Shown here: positions 22,758 to 44,804 of the stretch, in pieces
Layout of the letters: every line of letters starts with the position of its first letter
Position numbering within the stretch: position 1 is the first letter of the stretch
Assembly: GCA_016785955.1 (NCBI GenBank)
Contig: JAEUWH010000070.1
Span: forward strand, 1 to 45,243
DNA: 45,243 nucleotides
From: Pseudobdellovibrionaceae bacterium
Lineage (GTDB): Bacteria; Bdellovibrionota; Bdellovibrionia; Bdellovibrionales; Bdellovibrionaceae
Direction of reading: 5' to 3'
Translations under genes and position numbers: made by a program
The notes under the pieces: model-generated
The model's database searches: none
Seen by the model: only the letters and a program-made list of their open reading frames with translations
What the model was told of the DNA's origin: nothing

Positions 22758-24866
22758 TTAAACTGCATTTTTCCAGTGCTGTGCTGATGCGGCTTTAGCA
22801 TACTTCCCGTACTTCATATCTACACCCAAGATATGCCTCATAAGCCAATCATTCAAAAAATTCATAAGCTCTGCACTGTCATATTGGCCCTCATCTATCT
22901 TCGAGCTAAATTCCACAACCTGTGAAAGAAGTTTTCGATGAGTCGCTTTATGCGCATCTAAATCGGGGTATTTTATTGATTCCATATAGGATTCTTCGTG
23001 ATTAAAGTGAATTCGAGTATATTCTGCGAGTGCAGAAAAAGCTCTCTTTACCGCTTTGTCACGTCTGGAGTCATTGGTTAATTCTAAATTCTCGGCAAGA
23101 GCATTAATTTTTTCAATCAACACCTTGTGCTCGGCATCCATTTCCTGAACGCCAATCTGATACTCGCTAGCCCATCTAAATTTAGTCACCGTCGTTTTAC
23201 CCTCGATGACTAGACGCAAATCGGCTGAAGCACGACGCAGGCCCTTCACCTTTTCGGCAAGCTGCTCGGCCGCAACCCCACAATTTTTCGCCGATACAAC
23301 CCCAACATCGGTGGTTCGATCAATTTGTTGAATAGCCTTGGATATCTCTGTTACACCATTCGACTGTTCCTGACTGGCTAACGAAATTCCATTCACCAAC
23401 TCAGATACATGAGACGATGACGTGACAATTTCAGAAAGAATAACCTCGCACTCGTGAGCAATTTTAGTTCCCTCTTTGACACTCGCTTTAGACTCTGTCA
23501 CCAAACTCCCTACCGTAGTCTTGGTTTCTTCTACAATGTTTTTTACGTGCCCCAAACTTTGATCTAACAATGCCGTGATTTCCTTTGCTGAACGTCCACT
23601 CATTGCTGCCAAGTTTCCAATTTCTTCCGCCACCACCGCAAAGCCTTTTCCATGCTCACCAGCACGAGCCGCCTCAACGGACGCGTTAAATGACAGTAGT
23701 TTGGTTTGAAACACAATTTCATTTATCACTTTAGTTTTATTGCCAATATCCTGAATAACGGACACGATCTCTGATATTTTTTGATTTCCACTGTGAACAG
23801 CTTCAGAAACTTTATCATTTCGCTGGTTGATCTCGGTCATAGCCATGACCATTTTTTGAACCATCTTACGCCCTCGATCAGCCGAAGCTTTCGAAGCCAG
23901 AGATGCTTTTTCTGATTCTTCGGCATTGTCCGATGATTTTCTGATCATCGCCGAAATTTCCTCAATTGCCGACGCTGTTTCTTGAACAGAAGCCGACTGC
24001 TGATTTGAAGCATGCGAAAGTTCCTACGAAATTGAAAAGATTTGACTGACAGCCGAACCCACATCATTCGAGTCCGAGACCAATTTTTCAGATACACTCT
24101 TAACTCTGCTTAACGGGCCACGAACAAGCACCGCCGCAATGACAAGCGCCAGTATCAACCCGACCCCGATAAAGAGTCCAATTTGCTTGTCTGTCGACAT
24201 CAATTCAATTTTTGCTTTAGCGGCCTTCACATCATCAATATTAGTGATCAAGGCAAAAACTCCGTGCAGTTTTCCATCTCTCCAATTCTCCATTTTATAC
24301 CCAAGCACATCTTCGCCATTACCCCAGGGGCTCATCGACGGATTACCATGACAATTCAAACACCCTTGTTTTTCTGAAATACGAATCGGTCTGAATACAG
24401 TCACCACTTTTGCGTCATCACTGACCCACTCCAAAAGTTCAGGATCAGCTTCAAATTTTTTGAAAATTTCCAGTTCCGCTAACGTCGCCTTATTTTCCTT
24501 TCGTCGTGGTTCATCAGAAAAAACTCGAAAAGAATAGTGTTCCTGTTCTGCACCCTCGGCCCCAATCTTCATCGCCGCAAAAACTGGGACCTGAGCCAGA
24601 ACGGCTCGCTTGTCCTCGTCCGTCATTTCTGTAGAACTTTTATATTTTGCAGTCATGCTATCTATAATTGGCTTGAGTCCGCCTTGATTGGCGACAAAAG
24701 CCGTTGCAGCCCTAAGACGCGAATGAATAGCACGCGATTTGTCCACTATTCCAGAGTGTAGTTCCTTTTGATTGAAGTGCCTGGCCACACCAACGGCAAT
24801 ACTGAGACAGATAAGACAAGAAAATACAACGATGAGTAGAATTTTACTATTTAGTTTTTCAAACAC
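22758..24866 (-). pseudogene. Methyl-accepting chemotaxis protein with haem-type and haemerythrin domains, split by an in-frame TAG
   Basis: One frame of 702 sense-equivalent codons is interrupted only by TAG at 24024-24026 (codon 281). Before the stop: TM1 (about 10-30), a periplasmic DUF3365/Tll0287-type domain with the c-type haem motif GCLNCHG (about 193-199) and TM2 (about 229-250). After it, in the same frame, comes the coiled-coil MCP signalling region (hairpin tip near [35 protein letters not shown]). A C-terminal bacteriohaemerythrin follows, with all ligands visible ([25 protein letters not shown]). The context SIS[16 protein letters not shown] suggests a CAG-to-TAG change at a Gln. 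Either a recent pseudogene, a readthrough gene or a sequencing error; the downstream ATG at 23948 lacks a good ribosome binding site. Confidence 0.85.
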
Positions 24867-39168: not shown

Positions 39169-40659
39169 ATGAAAAACAGTTATCTAAAGATGAAGATAAA
39201 GTTAACTCTAGCTCTCTTATTTCTCCAAATTAGCGTGTTCGCTAACTTTGTCGGCAATGATACGCAAAATTTTAACCCTATCCCAAGTGGTTTGGATTTT
39301 GTCACTGTTCACAGTAGCGAAACACTGCTGCAAGGCTTTTTCAATTCAGGTATATTCATTAACTATGGTAAGAATTCACTTCCGAATACACAAGATGAGT
39401 ATGGAAAAACAGTCAGCAGCAAGGATTCAACCACTTTCACAGATCTCAGTTTTGCCTATGGAATTATCGAAGATCTGGATTTTGGACTTAGCCTTTCCTA
39501 TCTAAACACACAAGAAACAAATCGCGATGTACCAGGCGCTCAATTTGCCGGCACCGGACTAAATGAAATACGCTTACTAGGAAAATATCGCTGGCAAAAA
39601 CGTGATCCCACCGGAATTGCCTTGGTCACATCAATGAACTTTAATCAATCCTTGAACAATCCCTTTGCCGGTACCGACAGCGGCCCAACATTGAACATCG
39701 AAGGTATCGTCGATCATAAGCTGGGAAATTTTTTATTAGCCGGAAACTTAGGGTATCGGATGCGCAGCCAAGGAAAACCTATTTCCGGCGCACTCTTCCA
39801 AACACTCCCTAACCAAGTCATCACTTCTTTAGCGGCCAGCTATTATTTAAACTCGGCGGATTTAAAACTGATCGCCGAACTGTTTGCCGCCAAATCCACC
39901 GAGACAGTTCCCTTTATCGATTCCGAAAAAATTTCCTCCGAGTTTTTGTTCGGAGTGAAATACGACGCTCACACTTATGCGTCCTTCCACTTCGGCGCCG
40001 GTACACAAGTCAGCGATGGCCTCTTTACACCAGACTGGCGCATCTACACTGGCCTAAACATGAGTTTTGATATCCTTCACATACCGACGTCCCGCTCGTC
40101 GCCCTCAAAAGATTCTCGTCCCATTCAAAAAACAACCTACACCTATCAAGGATACCAACCCCGAGACATCGTCGCTCTCAAAGAAATCCCCTTTGATACA
40201 CTTGCCAAAAATCATGAATTTTACCTGGGCACAACGGTACCCGAAACCGATTTTTCTGGTATAAAACCACCTTTTGAAATTATCCGTCTAGATAATTTTG
40301 ATTTTGATTTTGGCTCTTCTAAAATTCGCCCCGAGTATTATCCTCTTTTAAATCGTCTAGCCGCTTATATCGGCTCTAACCCTCCTGTTATAAAAATTCG
40401 CGTCGAAGGCCACACCGATTCTTTAGGCTCCGAAGAGCGTAATCGCAAACGCAGCCAAAGCCGTGCCGACGCCGTCACAGATTTTATTAAAAACACAGGA
40501 CTTATTTCTCATGTCGTTACGGAACCTGTAGGCATGGGCGCCAGTCGCCCGATTGCCGACAATAGTAATTTCCAAGGACGTCAACAAAATCGTCGCGTGG
40601 AGATTCGTATTCTCCGCCAGATTCCCGCACCACCTTTTGAAAAAATAGAGACGGAATAA
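39169..40659 (+). CDS. Outer-membrane beta-barrel protein with OmpA peptidoglycan-binding domain
   Basis: A 496-residue envelope protein. The signal peptide ends ...LQISVFA. Residues about 25-310 alternate as membrane beta strands (FTDLSFAYGIIEDLDFGLSL; IRLLGKYRWQKRDPTGIALV; LLAGNLGYRMRSQGKP), forming a transporter-like or porin barrel. After a linker, the C-terminal OmpA domain (about 375-490) holds FDFDFGSSKIRPEYYPLLNR, VEGHTDSLGSEERNRKRSQS and RADAV, with the Asp and Arg that bind diaminopimelate. A second possible start lies at 39190. The long frame upstream of 39169 has no support. It could anchor the envelope near the fibre operon downstream. Confidence 0.88.
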   Translation: MKNSYLKMKIKLTLALLFLQISVFANFVGNDTQNFNPIPSGLDFVTVHSSETLLQGFFNSGIFINYGKNSLPNTQDEYGKTVSSKDSTTFTDLSFAYGIIEDLDFGLSLSYLNTQETNRDVPGAQFAGTGLNEIRLLGKYRWQKRDPTGIALVTSMNFNQSLNNPFAGTDSGPTLNIEGIVDHKLGNFLLAGNLGYRMRSQGKPISGALFQTLPNQVITSLAASYYLNSADLKLIAELFAAKSTETVPFIDSEKISSEFLFGVKYDAHTYASFHFGAGTQVSDGLFTPDWRIYTGLNMSFDILHIPTSRSSPSKDSRPIQKTTYTYQGYQPRDIVALKEIPFDTLAKNHEFYLGTTVPETDFSGIKPPFEIIRLDNFDFDFGSSKIRPEYYPLLNRLAAYIGSNPPVIKIRVEGHTDSLGSEERNRKRSQSRADAVTDFIKNTGLISHVVTEPVGMGASRPIADNSNFQGRQQNRRVEIRILRQIPAPPFEKIETE

Positions 40660-40871
40660 ATTCTCATTCTTAGATATATCAAAAATCTGTAAAGATTCAT
40701 TGTAACATGACCATCTCCACAGATGGCCCTTTACTCGGATTTTCTTGAAAATTCGTATTTCTCTTGAAACTCAACATCCTAGAGTTTTTCAAGAATTCTC
40801 GAGACAATAATTAATTCAATTCGCCGAAATATTTCTCAGACAGCAATGCAACTATTAAAGGATTTTTGCGC
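40660..40871 (+). other. Intergenic region before the lipoprotein-fibre operon
   Basis: Contains a 6-bp hairpin CCATCT (40711-40716)/AGATGG (40721-40726), possibly the end of the OmpA transcript, and repeated TTTCTTGAAA-like segments near 40741-40775. The operon promoter must lie here, but I cannot single it out. Confidence 0.35.
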
Positions 40872-41468
40872 ATGATTGTGAATAGAAAATTTCAACTGTT
40901 ACTTTATATCGTACACGTGATCGCGGCCTTCACCGTCGGTTGTGGAAAATCTGAATTTGATCCCTTACTTAAAACAATCCCCAGTTTAAAACCAGAGAAC
41001 AATGGACCCTCTTTAAAAACAAGTTCTATGGATATCAGTTCCCCAAATGTGGCCGACGGAATCAACCCGGCCATTGTAACTCTTCATTTAAAAACCGAAG
41101 ACGATAAACCCGTGACTGGTCTTCAAATGGGCCTTCAAGTTTCTGGCAGTGGCAATATCATTGTCCCCTGCACCCCGTCCGACAATTTGGGGCAATCAGA
41201 ATGCCAAATTTATTCGTTTAAAGCGGAAATTAAAAAAGTTTCTACAGTTGGTACAATCACGATGAAAGAAGAAACTATTTTTCAAAGACCACCCGTTTCA
41301 AAAAGCACTTTCGGCATCGTAAGCTCTGGACACTTTGAAACACACTCGAGCGGAATCAATATAGTTTCCATGTCTGGCATCACAGAAAGTGACACACGCC
41401 TGTACGATTCCAGTGGTGCGCTTCGAGTGAAAACATCGATTTTTAATTCAATTATTGAAAAGAAATAA
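40872..41468 (+). CDS. Lipoprotein with Ig-like domain, partner of the fibre gene
   Basis: A 198-residue lipoprotein: the N-terminus ends in lipobox TVGC followed by GKSEFDPLL. Residues about 50-140 resemble a bacterial Ig-like (Big/invasin) fold (SMDISSPNVADGINPAIVTL; HLKTEDDKPVTGLQMGLQVS; GSGNIIVPC). The tail (SSGHFETHSSGINIVSMSGI) is beta-rich. AAAGGA precedes the ATG by nine bases. It lies 14 bp upstream of the fibre gene, so the two are translated from one mRNA; it is well placed to tether or chaperone the fibre at the outer membrane. That partnership is inferred. Confidence 0.8.
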   Translation: MIVNRKFQLLLYIVHVIAAFTVGCGKSEFDPLLKTIPSLKPENNGPSLKTSSMDISSPNVADGINPAIVTLHLKTEDDKPVTGLQMGLQVSGSGNIIVPCTPSDNLGQSECQIYSFKAEIKKVSTVGTITMKEETIFQRPPVSKSTFGIVSSGHFETHSSGINIVSMSGITESDTRLYDSSGALRVKTSIFNSIIEKK

Positions 41469-41482
41469 CTGAGGGTTTGAAA

Positions 41483-43951
41483 ATGAGATCGCTATTTTTC
41501 AAATGTCTATTAATGTTTGTAATGGGTTCTAGTTTATCCCTATTTGCTACACCGGTTGGGTTCACATATCAGGGGAAAATATACAAAGCTAATGGCAACG
41601 AACCGCTTCAGGAGCCAGCCGTCGTGTTCAAAGTTCAAATTCGCTCTCCCGATGCTCAGTGTATTCTGTTTGAAGAAACTCACTCTCGGGACATGAGCGG
41701 TACGGAAGGTAATTTCAGTCTCATTATCGGCGAGGGGTCAAACACGAATGCCACCAGTCTGAACCTCCTGCAAGTATTCGACAATTCAAATGCCAAGGTC
41801 GGCTTCGGAGGCTGTAACTATACACCATCCGTCAATGATTTCCGTCGGCTGCGATTCAGCTATGATGACGGAACTACCGTCGTCACTCTGACAGGCGATC
41901 AAACGATTCGCTCGGTACCGTTTGCTATCAATGCGACGGCTTTGGGTGGACTTACCAAAGATAGCTTCATTCAAATCTCGGCACAAACGACACAACTTAA
42001 ATTGGATAATCTTCTGGCTCAATCAGCACCCCTGCTTTCCTTAGCGGCCGGCACATCGCCACAATATATTAAGGCTTCAGAGCTGCCTACATCCGGAGGG
42101 TTTCTGAATTTGTCTTCAACTGGCGTGCAAGTCCCTGATGCTCCCGCTTCTGCAAGTTATGCAGTTAATAAGAATTACGCCGATAGTTTTATTGGAGGCC
42201 GTGCGATTGATCTGTCGACAATGACCAACGGAACTCTGCTCAGTTGGAATTCTATTTCAAACAAATGGGTCGGACGTAGCATCGCCTCCTCAGATATCAC
42301 AACAGCTCTAAACTTTACGCCCGTTAACAAAGCCGGAGACACCTTTTCAGGTGCAATCAACATGGGAGGAAATAATATCACTCAAACCGGTTACATCACC
42401 ATGAACCCAGGTAAATACTTAAGCCTAGGCTCATTTGACGCCGCCGCAGAAACCAATTTGATTACAACAATACTAACCCCGGGAGGAAATTCCTACGCCG
42501 GTGTGACTTGGTATAACTCGGTGACAAAATCAATCAAGTACTGGGATGGTACTCTGGCCGTGGCCTTAACAGAACACCTGGGTGGAACGGTGAAATCTAT
42601 CACTGCCGGAGCGGGCCTGTCGGGTGGCACCATCACGAACTCGGGAACCATCTCGTTACCTAACGTCGGCGCAGTGGGAACATTCACAAAAATTACCACC
42701 GATGCACAGGGGCGAGTCAGTGCCGGCGCGACGTTATCCGCAACGGATATTCCTTCGGCCAGTGGCGATGTTAGCGGCTCCTACGACAATCTTTCGGTTG
42801 TAAAAATTCAAGGTGTGAATATCGCCAACTCGGCTCCGGCACCGGGCCAGGTACTCAGTTACAATTCCACCAATACGCGATGGGAACCGCTATCGATCAT
42901 AACCAACCTCAACGCAGCTTCACCTTTATCTGTCGCAACAGGCAGCTCGGATCGAACGATTTCTCTTGTGAATGGACAAACCCCAGGTCAAGCCATGATC
43001 TGGACAAACTCGTCTTGGGAGATCGCTTTTCCCAACGCAAGTCAGCTTCGCGGAGTCGCAGCCGCCAGACAATTGCCTACGTCCTGTTCTACAAATCAAA
43101 TATGGTCGTATCAAGTTCCCAGCGATACATATGCCTGCGTGAACATAGCAATCTCGGCAAGCCAAATTTCTGGTTTAGGAACCGCAGCGGCCCTGAACGT
43201 CGGCACTTCGGCAAGCCATGTGGTCCAAATTGACTCCAATGGCAGACTACCTGCGGTCGATGGCAGTCAGTTGACTAATCTCAATGTCGAAGCTCCGTTT
43301 AAAAACATCCAAGTACTTTCCACTCCCGGACCGGCCAGCAGTTGGCTCGTTCCTCCCGGTGTAAAAAGAATTTTTGTAGAAGTATGGGGCGGGGGCGGTG
43401 GTGGTTCTGGAGGTAAAACCTCGTCGTCAGGAGGCACCGGTGGCGGTTCAGGGGCGTATGGCGCTTGGTTTAAAACGGTAGTACCGGGAGACTCGATCAC
43501 CTTCACGGTCGGTGATGGGGGCGGGGGTGGGAATGCAAATTCAGATGGTACTAATGGTTTTGCCAGCATTTTTGATGGCACCAGTATAGCGGGTGGACAG
43601 GCCGGTACAAACGCCAGCCCAGGCGCAGCCGTCAGTGGACCTTCTGGTAGTAGCATCATTGGTATAAATGGCGCTGCGGGATCGTTTGGCTCGATTCAAG
43701 GCATACAAACATCGGTTCTCGAAATACTTGGGGTCAGCGTGCTTGGCTCGACAAGTATTTCTGGTCTAGGTGGTAACGGTGGCGCTGCACCTAAGGGCGG
43801 TACCAGCGGAACAGGCTCAAGCTCGAGCTTAACGGCTGGCTCCAACGGTGGCGCTCCCGGCGGTGGAGGGGGCGGTGGCGGCAACTCCTTAGGTTCAGGA
43901 GGATCCAGCGGGGGCAAGGGCGGTGCCGGCAGAATCATTATTTGGCACTAA
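41483..43951 (+). CDS. Tail-fibre-like secreted adhesin (MAT-like) with glycine-rich tip
   Basis: An 822-residue secreted protein. The signal peptide ends ...SLSLFA. Residues 23-155 form an N-terminal domain (TPVGFTYQGKIYKANGNEPL; VQIRSPDAQCILFEE) of the kind found in Bdellovibrio fibre proteins. Residues about 156-610 form a shaft with phage-tail-fibre motifs (KAGDTFSGAINMGGNNIT; AGAGLSGGTITNSGTISL; SATDIPSASGDVSGSY) and three G-x-x-L-x-(W/Y)-N-S...W repeats. Residues about 620-822 are a glycine-rich tip opening WLVPPGVKRIFVEVWGGGGG and closing GGAGRIIIWH, as in phage receptor-binding tips. GAGGG lies seven bases before the ATG. Likely a trimeric surface fibre that binds prey or host; the ligand is unknown. 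Confidence 0.85.
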   Translation: MRSLFFKCLLMFVMGSSLSLFATPVGFTYQGKIYKANGNEPLQEPAVVFKVQIRSPDAQCILFEETHSRDMSGTEGNFSLIIGEGSNTNATSLNLLQVFDNSNAKVGFGGCNYTPSVNDFRRLRFSYDDGTTVVTLTGDQTIRSVPFAINATALGGLTKDSFIQISAQTTQLKLDNLLAQSAPLLSLAAGTSPQYIKASELPTSGGFLNLSSTGVQVPDAPASASYAVNKNYADSFIGGRAIDLSTMTNGTLLSWNSISNKWVGRSIASSDITTALNFTPVNKAGDTFSGAINMGGNNITQTGYITMNPGKYLSLGSFDAAAETNLITTILTPGGNSYAGVTWYNSVTKSIKYWDGTLAVALTEHLGGTVKSITAGAGLSGGTITNSGTISLPNVGAVGTFTKITTDAQGRVSAGATLSATDIPSASGDVSGSYDNLSVVKIQGVNIANSAPAPGQVLSYNSTNTRWEPLSIITNLNAASPLSVATGSSDRTISLVNGQTPGQAMIWTNSSWEIAFPNASQLRGVAAARQLPTSCSTNQIWSYQVPSDTYACVNIAISASQISGLGTAAALNVGTSASHVVQIDSNGRLPAVDGSQLTNLNVEAPFKNIQVLSTPGPASSWLVPPGVKRIFVEVWGGGGGGSGGKTSSSGGTGGGSGAYGAWFKTVVPGDSITFTVGDGGGGGNANSDGTNGFASIFDGTSIAGGQAGTNASPGAAVSGPSGSSIIGINGAAGSFGSIQGIQTSVLEILGVSVLGSTSISGLGGNGGAAPKGGTSGTGSSSSLTAGSNGGAPGGGGGGGGNSLGSGGSSGGKGGAGRIIIWH

Positions 43952-44006: not shown

Positions 44007-44720
44007 TTAAACACCAGATAAGGGGCCTGATTTGATAGAAAAGCAATATCCTTTCTTGGTTACGGCCTTCAAATGATGCCCGGTAAATGCTATCTTTTTT
44101 CTAAGTGAATAAATATGGGTATCAATCGTGTGGGCCGATACGTGAACAGAGTCTCCCCAAATAGCCATCAACAGTTCGTCCCGAGATATTACAACCCCTT
44201 CATTACGTAAAAAATGCACCAGAAGTTTAAACTCAATCGGAGTCAATTTTAATTCTGTTTCCGTATTGCCAAAGGCTACGGAAATACGATGGGCTGCTAA
44301 ATCAATAACAAAATCAGATTTACGAAATGTTGTGAGCGGCACCGACTGCAAATGGCGTTTTAATTTGGATTCAACACGAGCTTTGAATTCTTTAGGCTCT
44401 ATAGGCTTAACAATATAATCATCCGCACCTAACGAAAACCCCATGACAAGCTGATCAATGTCCGCCTTGCCAGTGAAAAATATAATAGGTAAATTTTGAA
44501 ATCTGTCTCGAGATCGAATTTTTTTACAAAAATCAAATCCATCACCATCAGGAAGATCAATATCCAATATCAATAAGGTATAAAGACCATGACTCAATTC
44601 CTGTTCGGCCCCGGCGACCGTCGTTACGCATGTCAATGCGCCGATATCTTCGATCGCCGACTGAACCATAATGTGTATACCAGGAGAGTCCTCCACCAAT
44701 AAAATCCTATGACCATCCAT
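44007..44720 (-). CDS. OmpR/PhoB-family response regulator
   Basis: A 237-residue transcription regulator. The receiver is at about 1-120 (RILLVEDSPG, phospho-acceptor in LLILDIDLPDGDG, Thr in IIFFTGK, Lys in YIVKPIEP). The winged-helix output is at 135-232 (LTPIEFKLLVHFLRNEGVVI; ISRDELLMAIWG; HTIDTHIYSLRKKI; AVTKKGYCF). The ATG at 44720 has AGGA upstream; an in-frame TTG six bases earlier is too close to it. No kinase is adjacent. It converges on the fibre gene with a 55-bp gap. A 9-bp inverted repeat upstream (44805-44831) could be its own operator. Confidence 0.92.
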   Translation of the reverse strand: MDGHRILLVEDSPGIHIMVQSAIEDIGALTCVTTVAGAEQELSHGLYTLLILDIDLPDGDGFDFCKKIRSRDRFQNLPIIFFTGKADIDQLVMGFSLGADDYIVKPIEPKEFKARVESKLKRHLQSVPLTTFRKSDFVIDLAAHRISVAFGNTETELKLTPIEFKLLVHFLRNEGVVISRDELLMAIWGDSVHVSAHTIDTHIYSLRKKIAFTGHHLKAVTKKGYCFSIKSGPLSGV

Positions 44721-44804
44721 CAACAAGTCCTATAAATTCTACAAGATATTTCAAATTATACTCTACCCAGCTTACTCTATTTTGATCATTTGTTAAGTTT
44801 AAAG

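Follow-up and report, generated by a model that had tools for sequence, protein, structure and literature searches.

A predicted MAT-family fibre with a phage-type glycine-rich tip, encoded behind an Ig-like lipoprotein gene in a Pseudobdellovibrionaceae bacterium

Bacterial predators recognise their prey with mosaic adhesive trimer (MAT) fibres, and those studied so far in Bdellovibrio bacteriovorus relate to prey handling (PMC10769870). A stretch of 45,243 nucleotides from a Pseudobdellovibrionaceae bacterium (contig JAEUWH010000070.1, positions 1 to 45,243, referred to below as the window) was predicted to encode such a fibre with a tip full of glycine runs. This raises the question of what the tip is, how it is inherited, and what could hold the fibre on the cell. 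The window's fibre follows the plan of the B. bacteriovorus MAT superfamily: a secretion signal, a conserved beta-rich N-terminal domain of about 130 aa, a shaft and a C-terminal tip specific to each paralogue (PMC10769870; NF053851). Six B. bacteriovorus MAT tips have been solved, comprising one S74/beta-helix, two novel beta-sandwiches, two TNF-like domains and one C-type lectin; none is a glycine lattice (PMC10769870). The fibre family and the phage-type tip are each already established. Their combination, as read here from sequence, is absent from the main text of PMC10769870, in which the word "glycine" does not occur.

Architecture of the fibre and its gene block

The coordinates of the fibre gene, its parts and its neighbours are collected in Table 1. 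The reading frame is uninterrupted from ATG to TAA. The ATG is preceded by a Shine-Dalgarno-like GAGGG, and the stop codon of the upstream lipoprotein gene lies 14 nt before it. The product is predicted to be a secreted protein in which a MAT N-terminal domain is followed by a shaft like that of phage fibres and by a tip of the Pam3 gp24 type. This agrees with the three-part mosaic fibre of the original prediction, all parts of which were matched well above chance in profile searches; membership of the MAT family was borne out by the NF053851 score.

Table 1. Features of the fibre gene and its neighbours (positions in the window).
Feature	Position	Strand	Evidence
Outer-membrane-type protein, C-terminal OmpA peptidoglycan-binding domain	39190..40659	+	PF00691; same gene order in relatives
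Ig-like (Big_1 / invasin D3-like) lipoprotein, directly upstream; proposed MAT partner	40866..41468	+	Adjacency; invariant Cys pair
MAT-family fibre gene, 822 aa	41483..43951	+	Open frame; NF053851 135.5 bits, cut-off 60
Sec signal peptide, predicted by eye, residues 1 to ~22-23	41483..41551	+	Basic start, hydrophobic core, ...LFA|TP
MAT N-terminal domain, residues 12-166, beta-rich	41516..41980	+	NF053851; AF2 pLDDT 89
Phage-fibre-like shaft, length strongly variable among orthologues	42100..43280	+	PHROG 863, 28908, 31472
Glycine-rich tip, predicted Pam3 gp24 type, residues 618-820	43334..43942	+	PF21722; PDB 7YFW/7YPX
Tip stretch with pLDDT < 50, residues 722-751	43646..43735	+	Overlaps insertion missing from five aligned orthologous tips
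OmpR-type response regulator, convergent with fibre gene	44007..44726	-	Adjoins fibre gene also in G062, G124

The NF053851 model was found by profile search in three copies in the genome of the window organism and was absent from 14 of 14 control genomes. The three MATs all end differently: one with the glycine tip, one with an S74 end and one with an end matching no named domain. Folds were predicted for single chains (monomer AlphaFold2, AF2). The N-terminal domain was modelled with good confidence (Table 1) and searched against the PDB, where no clear relative was found; the best Z of 6.8 lies in the range of common beta-sandwiches, and no relative is therefore claimed. The phage-tail-fibre-like character ascribed to the shaft was confirmed by PHROG matches from residue 316 onward, with E values of 2.9e-16 for PHROG 863 and 7.7e-11 for PHROG 28908 (residues 346-416). 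A Pfam scan returned Gly_rich_2 as the sole domain and no Peptidase_S74, making the fibre an NS74 member of the MATs. Searching the PDB with the whole protein (phmmer) gave a chance glycine-linker match only.

The window, G062, G097, G098 and G124 share a gene order in which the OmpA-type protein comes first, then the Ig-like lipoprotein and then the MAT. The contigs of G089 and G090 stop short of the OmpA position, and in G006 no OmpA-type relative was found there. An OmpA-type barrel was also considered as a general companion of MATs and ruled out: the family is large and widespread, and its members were seen next to lipoprotein-MAT pairs only in this clade. The convergent response regulator follows the MAT gene in the window and in G062, and lies beside the tip fragment in G124. 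This OmpR-type regulator could conceivably control the fibre operon; in G062 and G124 the regulator is followed by a large protein with a receiver-like match. A promoter scan was uninformative (8 found, 7.7 expected).

Identity and inheritance of the glycine-rich tip

The glycine-rich terminal domain first noticed in the sequence corresponds to a match to PF21722 (Gly_rich_2: 45.3 bits, cut-off 24.3), the only one in the genome. The segments named as its two ends, VPPGVKRIFVEVWGGGGGG and GAGRIIIWH, were both located in the translated protein, and the runs of five to eight glycines were found at residues 636-641 (6), 679-683 (5) and 793-800 (8). Glycine codons in the tip are mixed (GGT 25, GGC 24, GGA 10, GGG 8), and Tandem Repeats Finder reported no array. 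An origin of the polyglycine as a DNA microsatellite or repeat artefact was ruled out on both grounds, and the glycine composition is therefore kept at the protein level.

Searching the PDB with a profile built from six orthologous tips gave only two sequences at E < 1, both of the Pam3 fibre (7YFW/7YPX, E 1.7e-7); a wider tip profile additionally found RemZ and the Bxb1 tail protein. The AF2 model of residues 572-822 (pLDDT 78, pTM 0.73; half of the residues at 90 or above) matched Pam3 gp24 (7YPX_A) with a Z of 21.2 and 2.3 Å over 188 residues. The next matches were the Bxb1 tail-tip protein (Z 13.3) and the ALK/LTK glycine-rich domains (Z about 9), all others being below 5, and many phage glycine-rich fibre proteins matched the model in BFVD. 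Because the tip had no tblastn match at 1e-5 among 50,697 phage records, a search in which the low-complexity filter may hide one, the phage link rests on the profile and fold evidence. The same evidence upheld the view of the domain as a phage-type glycine-lattice tip. The tip is predicted to be a TNF-like sandwich extended into a glycine lattice, as in Pam3 gp24, and since two other MATs bear TNF-like tips (PMC10769870), a glycine extension added to such a sandwich is in keeping with the family.

In gp24 of cyanophage Pam3, the strands of a TNF-like sandwich run into twelve glycine-rich motifs with dihedral angles near those of a beta-sheet, and these form a lattice of four layers in which the stem is conserved and the far end varies (PMC9608196). 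The modelled tip resembles gp24 in its sandwich and lattice, and also in its conserved glycine stem and variable end: in the tip alignment, glycine-majority columns are 88% conserved as against 51% in the other columns, the same trend as in Pam3 (PMC9608196). Unlike gp24, which is a phage protein with an alpha-helical N-terminus and a separate chaperone, gp25, the window tip ends a long bacterial fibre, and no gp25/Tfa-type chaperone domain was recognised among the scanned neighbours of the fibre gene. The tip insertion at 43646-43735 could be a lineage-specific contact loop. Outside the MATs, a 1484-aa protein of G073 (L083 3850-8304) lacks the MAT N-terminal domain; it has Ig repeats of the Big_12 type, five in number, and its C-terminus matches Pfam ALK_LTK_GRD, the glycine-rich domain of receptor kinases.

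A tree was made of 87 MAT N-terminal domains. The window fibre fell into a clade of eight (SH-aLRT 97: G000, G006, G062, G089, G090, G097, G098 and G124), patchily distributed over four families (f1, f4, f6 and f10). Every member with a readable C-terminus (7/7) has the glycine tip, one of them in shrunken form. Five complete proteins, the window's included, bear it in full, as does one of the two contig ends over which the G124 fibre is split; the G097 fibre is cut off before its C-terminus. In the G006 fibre (L064 5732-8014) the tip has shrunk to 43 residues, retaining its first and last strands and a single polyglycine run but none of the remaining lattice. This short tip may be a real in-frame loss or an assembly repeat collapse; the lipoprotein frame upstream of it, at 95 aa, is short as well.

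Among the five complete proteins, identity was 49-62% for the N-terminal domain and 46-57% for the tip, and the residues before the tip numbered from 341 to 882. Since the two identities are alike and the length before the tip is so variable, the tip travelled with the N-terminal domain and fibre length changed most. Judged from these alignments, the tip in this clade is inherited with the N-terminal domain and not swapped. A comparison of tips between relatives had been suggested at the outset; it showed the glycine tip retained over four families, which argues against a strain-specific ligand reader. With a tip that does not swap across families, the clade is an exception to the tip-swapping picture of MATs and points to a widely shared ligand or role. 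Two MAT lineages with unrelated N-terminal domains (G066 and G080) were also found to bear glycine tips, making three lineages in total, and MATs therefore acquired this tip type more than once.

Lipoprotein genes beside MAT genes

Three lipoproteins of the fibre block were used to search 141 genomes. It returned two kinds of protein: long ones with Ig repeats, and some 40 short ones with a single domain, most of the latter carrying a lipobox. Of 44 short-lipoprotein loci spread over the order, 34 have an adjoining MAT, as counted on extracted genome regions, the loci being related by descent and the count one of places, not of independent events. The lipoprotein always lies 5' of the MAT: 21 MATs are downstream on the same strand, 13 are head-to-head, and no other arrangement was found. 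In the other 10 short-lipoprotein loci no MAT was within reach, five of these loci being near contig ends. Control loci with long Ig proteins contained a MAT in 0 of 15 cases, and chance adjacency amounts to about 5% per locus (given up to 23 MATs in a genome of 3.8 Mb). A further search, now with 28 lipoproteins as queries, yielded two previously unused loci, in G066 and G063, both with a MAT head-to-head; the seeds of both searches were neighbours of MATs. MATs were present in 32 of the 34 genomes with a short lipoprotein and in 71 of the 107 others (Fisher p 8e-4). The pairing label changed at least four times on well-supported branches of the MAT tree. All eight members of the tip-keeping clade have the lipoprotein upstream of the MAT, and two cysteines are invariant in 28 lipoprotein copies.

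Further lipoprotein-MAT loci include L118, L177 and L178. A second head-to-head form, with spacing shorter than that of Bdellovibrio, was seen at L112, L115, L123 and L125 (G118, G048, G116 and G105; families f4 and f6).

Most Bdellovibrio genomes have one short lipoprotein gene, paired with one MAT of about 20. Genome G060 is one that we take to be B. bacteriovorus HD100. It contains 21 MATs, the number reported for HD100 (PMC10769870), and a single short lipoprotein gene at about 2,780,130-2,780,816 on the minus strand, head-to-head with that of a 626-aa MAT. Reported lengths are 626 aa for Bd2872, 627 aa for Bd2740 and 843 aa for Bd2734 (PMC10769870). Bd2740 and Bd2734 lie close together and fit the G060 loci 2,661,761 and 2,657,968; the lipoprotein-paired 626-aa MAT was assigned to Bd2872 by length and position, not from a gene table. 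A screen for predation mutants hit Bd2872 (PMC10769870, its ref. 33), as did mini-Tn-seq (PMC6561027). Like the window fibre, it is a MAT beside the same kind of Ig-like lipoprotein gene; unlike it, Bd2872 belongs to a separate MAT clade, ends in ...CDGDGDGF and is arranged head-to-head rather than in tandem. The surface element bound by the MAT N-terminal domain was left unidentified by the MAT paper, the main text of which does not mention a lipoprotein, OmpA or an operon (PMC10769870). The lipoprotein offers a small candidate for this anchor: HD100 has one short copy, paired with what is by its length Bd2872, among the few MATs reported as required for predation.

Proposed roles and alternative readings

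The link between lipoprotein and MAT is genetic, not physical. Lipoprotein-paired MATs end differently (glycine, S74 or CDGDGDGF); as they bear different tips and share the N-terminal domain, an interaction with that domain is favoured, and because the tips are unrelated the lipoprotein is not a tip-specific chaperone. We tentatively propose, at less than even odds, that the Ig-like lipoprotein may be an outer-membrane anchor binding the MAT N-terminal domain, and that the window operon may add the OmpA-type protein at the same attachment site. It could instead be a factor for fibre assembly or export, such as a periplasmic chaperone guarding the fibre. Such a factor would predict the same genetic linkage, and folding of the Pam3 fibre needs gp25, a chaperone with a beta-sandwich domain (PMC9608196); against it stands the lipobox in most lipoprotein copies, and on balance we consider this role somewhat unlikely.

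For the locus as a whole, the best explanation is a MAT fibre with a Pam3-gp24-type tip, belonging to a tip-keeping clade and encoded behind an Ig-like lipoprotein and usually, where the contig permits, an OmpA-type protein. We give it a probability of roughly two in three, with the trimer, anchor and contact steps included. Three chains would wind into one fibre, which the N-terminal domain would hold on the outer membrane of the cell, possibly via the co-encoded lipoprotein. The OmpA-type protein would tie the attachment site to peptidoglycan, and the glycine lattice would use the variable loops of its far end to contact a molecule on the surface of another cell, most likely a prey cell. It counts against this explanation that the genus of the window organism may be non-predatory, that residues 722-751 of the tip were predicted with low confidence, that the lipoprotein accompanies only one of about 20 MATs in most Bdellovibrio genomes, and that 10 of the 44 lipoprotein loci had no MAT within reach. 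A surface adhesin that serves to hold substrate, other cells or matrix rather than prey would explain one tip kept over four families, and would suit a tip co-inherited with its N-terminal domain, the patchy spread of the clade over f1, f4, f6 and f10, and the presence of three MATs in the window genome as against 21 in HD100. We nevertheless judge it improbable, given that the studied MATs are tied to prey handling (PMC10769870) and that phage glycine-lattice tips are described as receptor binders (PMC9608196, PMC12892980). The PHROG tail-fibre matches would fit a prophage or tailocin tail-fibre gene, but a signal peptide and a MAT N-terminal domain are present, the genes around it code for an OmpA-type protein, a lipoprotein, a response regulator and housekeeping functions, and the same gene order recurs in other families; a phage gene is given next to no credence.

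The type of the tip was also weighed against the S16-type polyglycine-II sandwich to which it had been likened. In S16 gp38, ten PGII motifs are packed into a lattice of three layers that sits on a beta-helix (PMC6851490). The gp38 proteins of S16 and PP01 (PDB 6F45) share lattice-packed glycine motifs and variable receptor-binding loops with the tip (PMC6851490, PMC12892980) and differ from it in having a beta-helix base and in capping the gp37 trimer as one copy. Overall look and glycine content are alike, and the Pam3 authors call both glycine domains similar in architecture (PMC9608196). However, the searches returned Pam3 gp24, the Bxb1 tail protein and ALK/LTK, with S16 gp38 neither among the PDB profile matches at E 1 in both profile searches nor among the matches listed in the two fold searches, an absence that is not proof, and the model fits the sandwich and lattice of gp24 over 188 residues rather than a beta-helix base (PMC6851490). 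Homology to S16 gp38 is unsupported, and a true gp38-type sandwich is very unlikely. The glycine lattice of the earlier claim therefore stands and its S16 type is not borne out, the nearest solved relative being Pam3 gp24.

Elsewhere in the window, positions 22761-23948 (minus strand) encode a possible oxygen-sensing chemoreceptor, in which a chemotaxis signalling domain is joined to a hemerythrin domain at the C-terminus.
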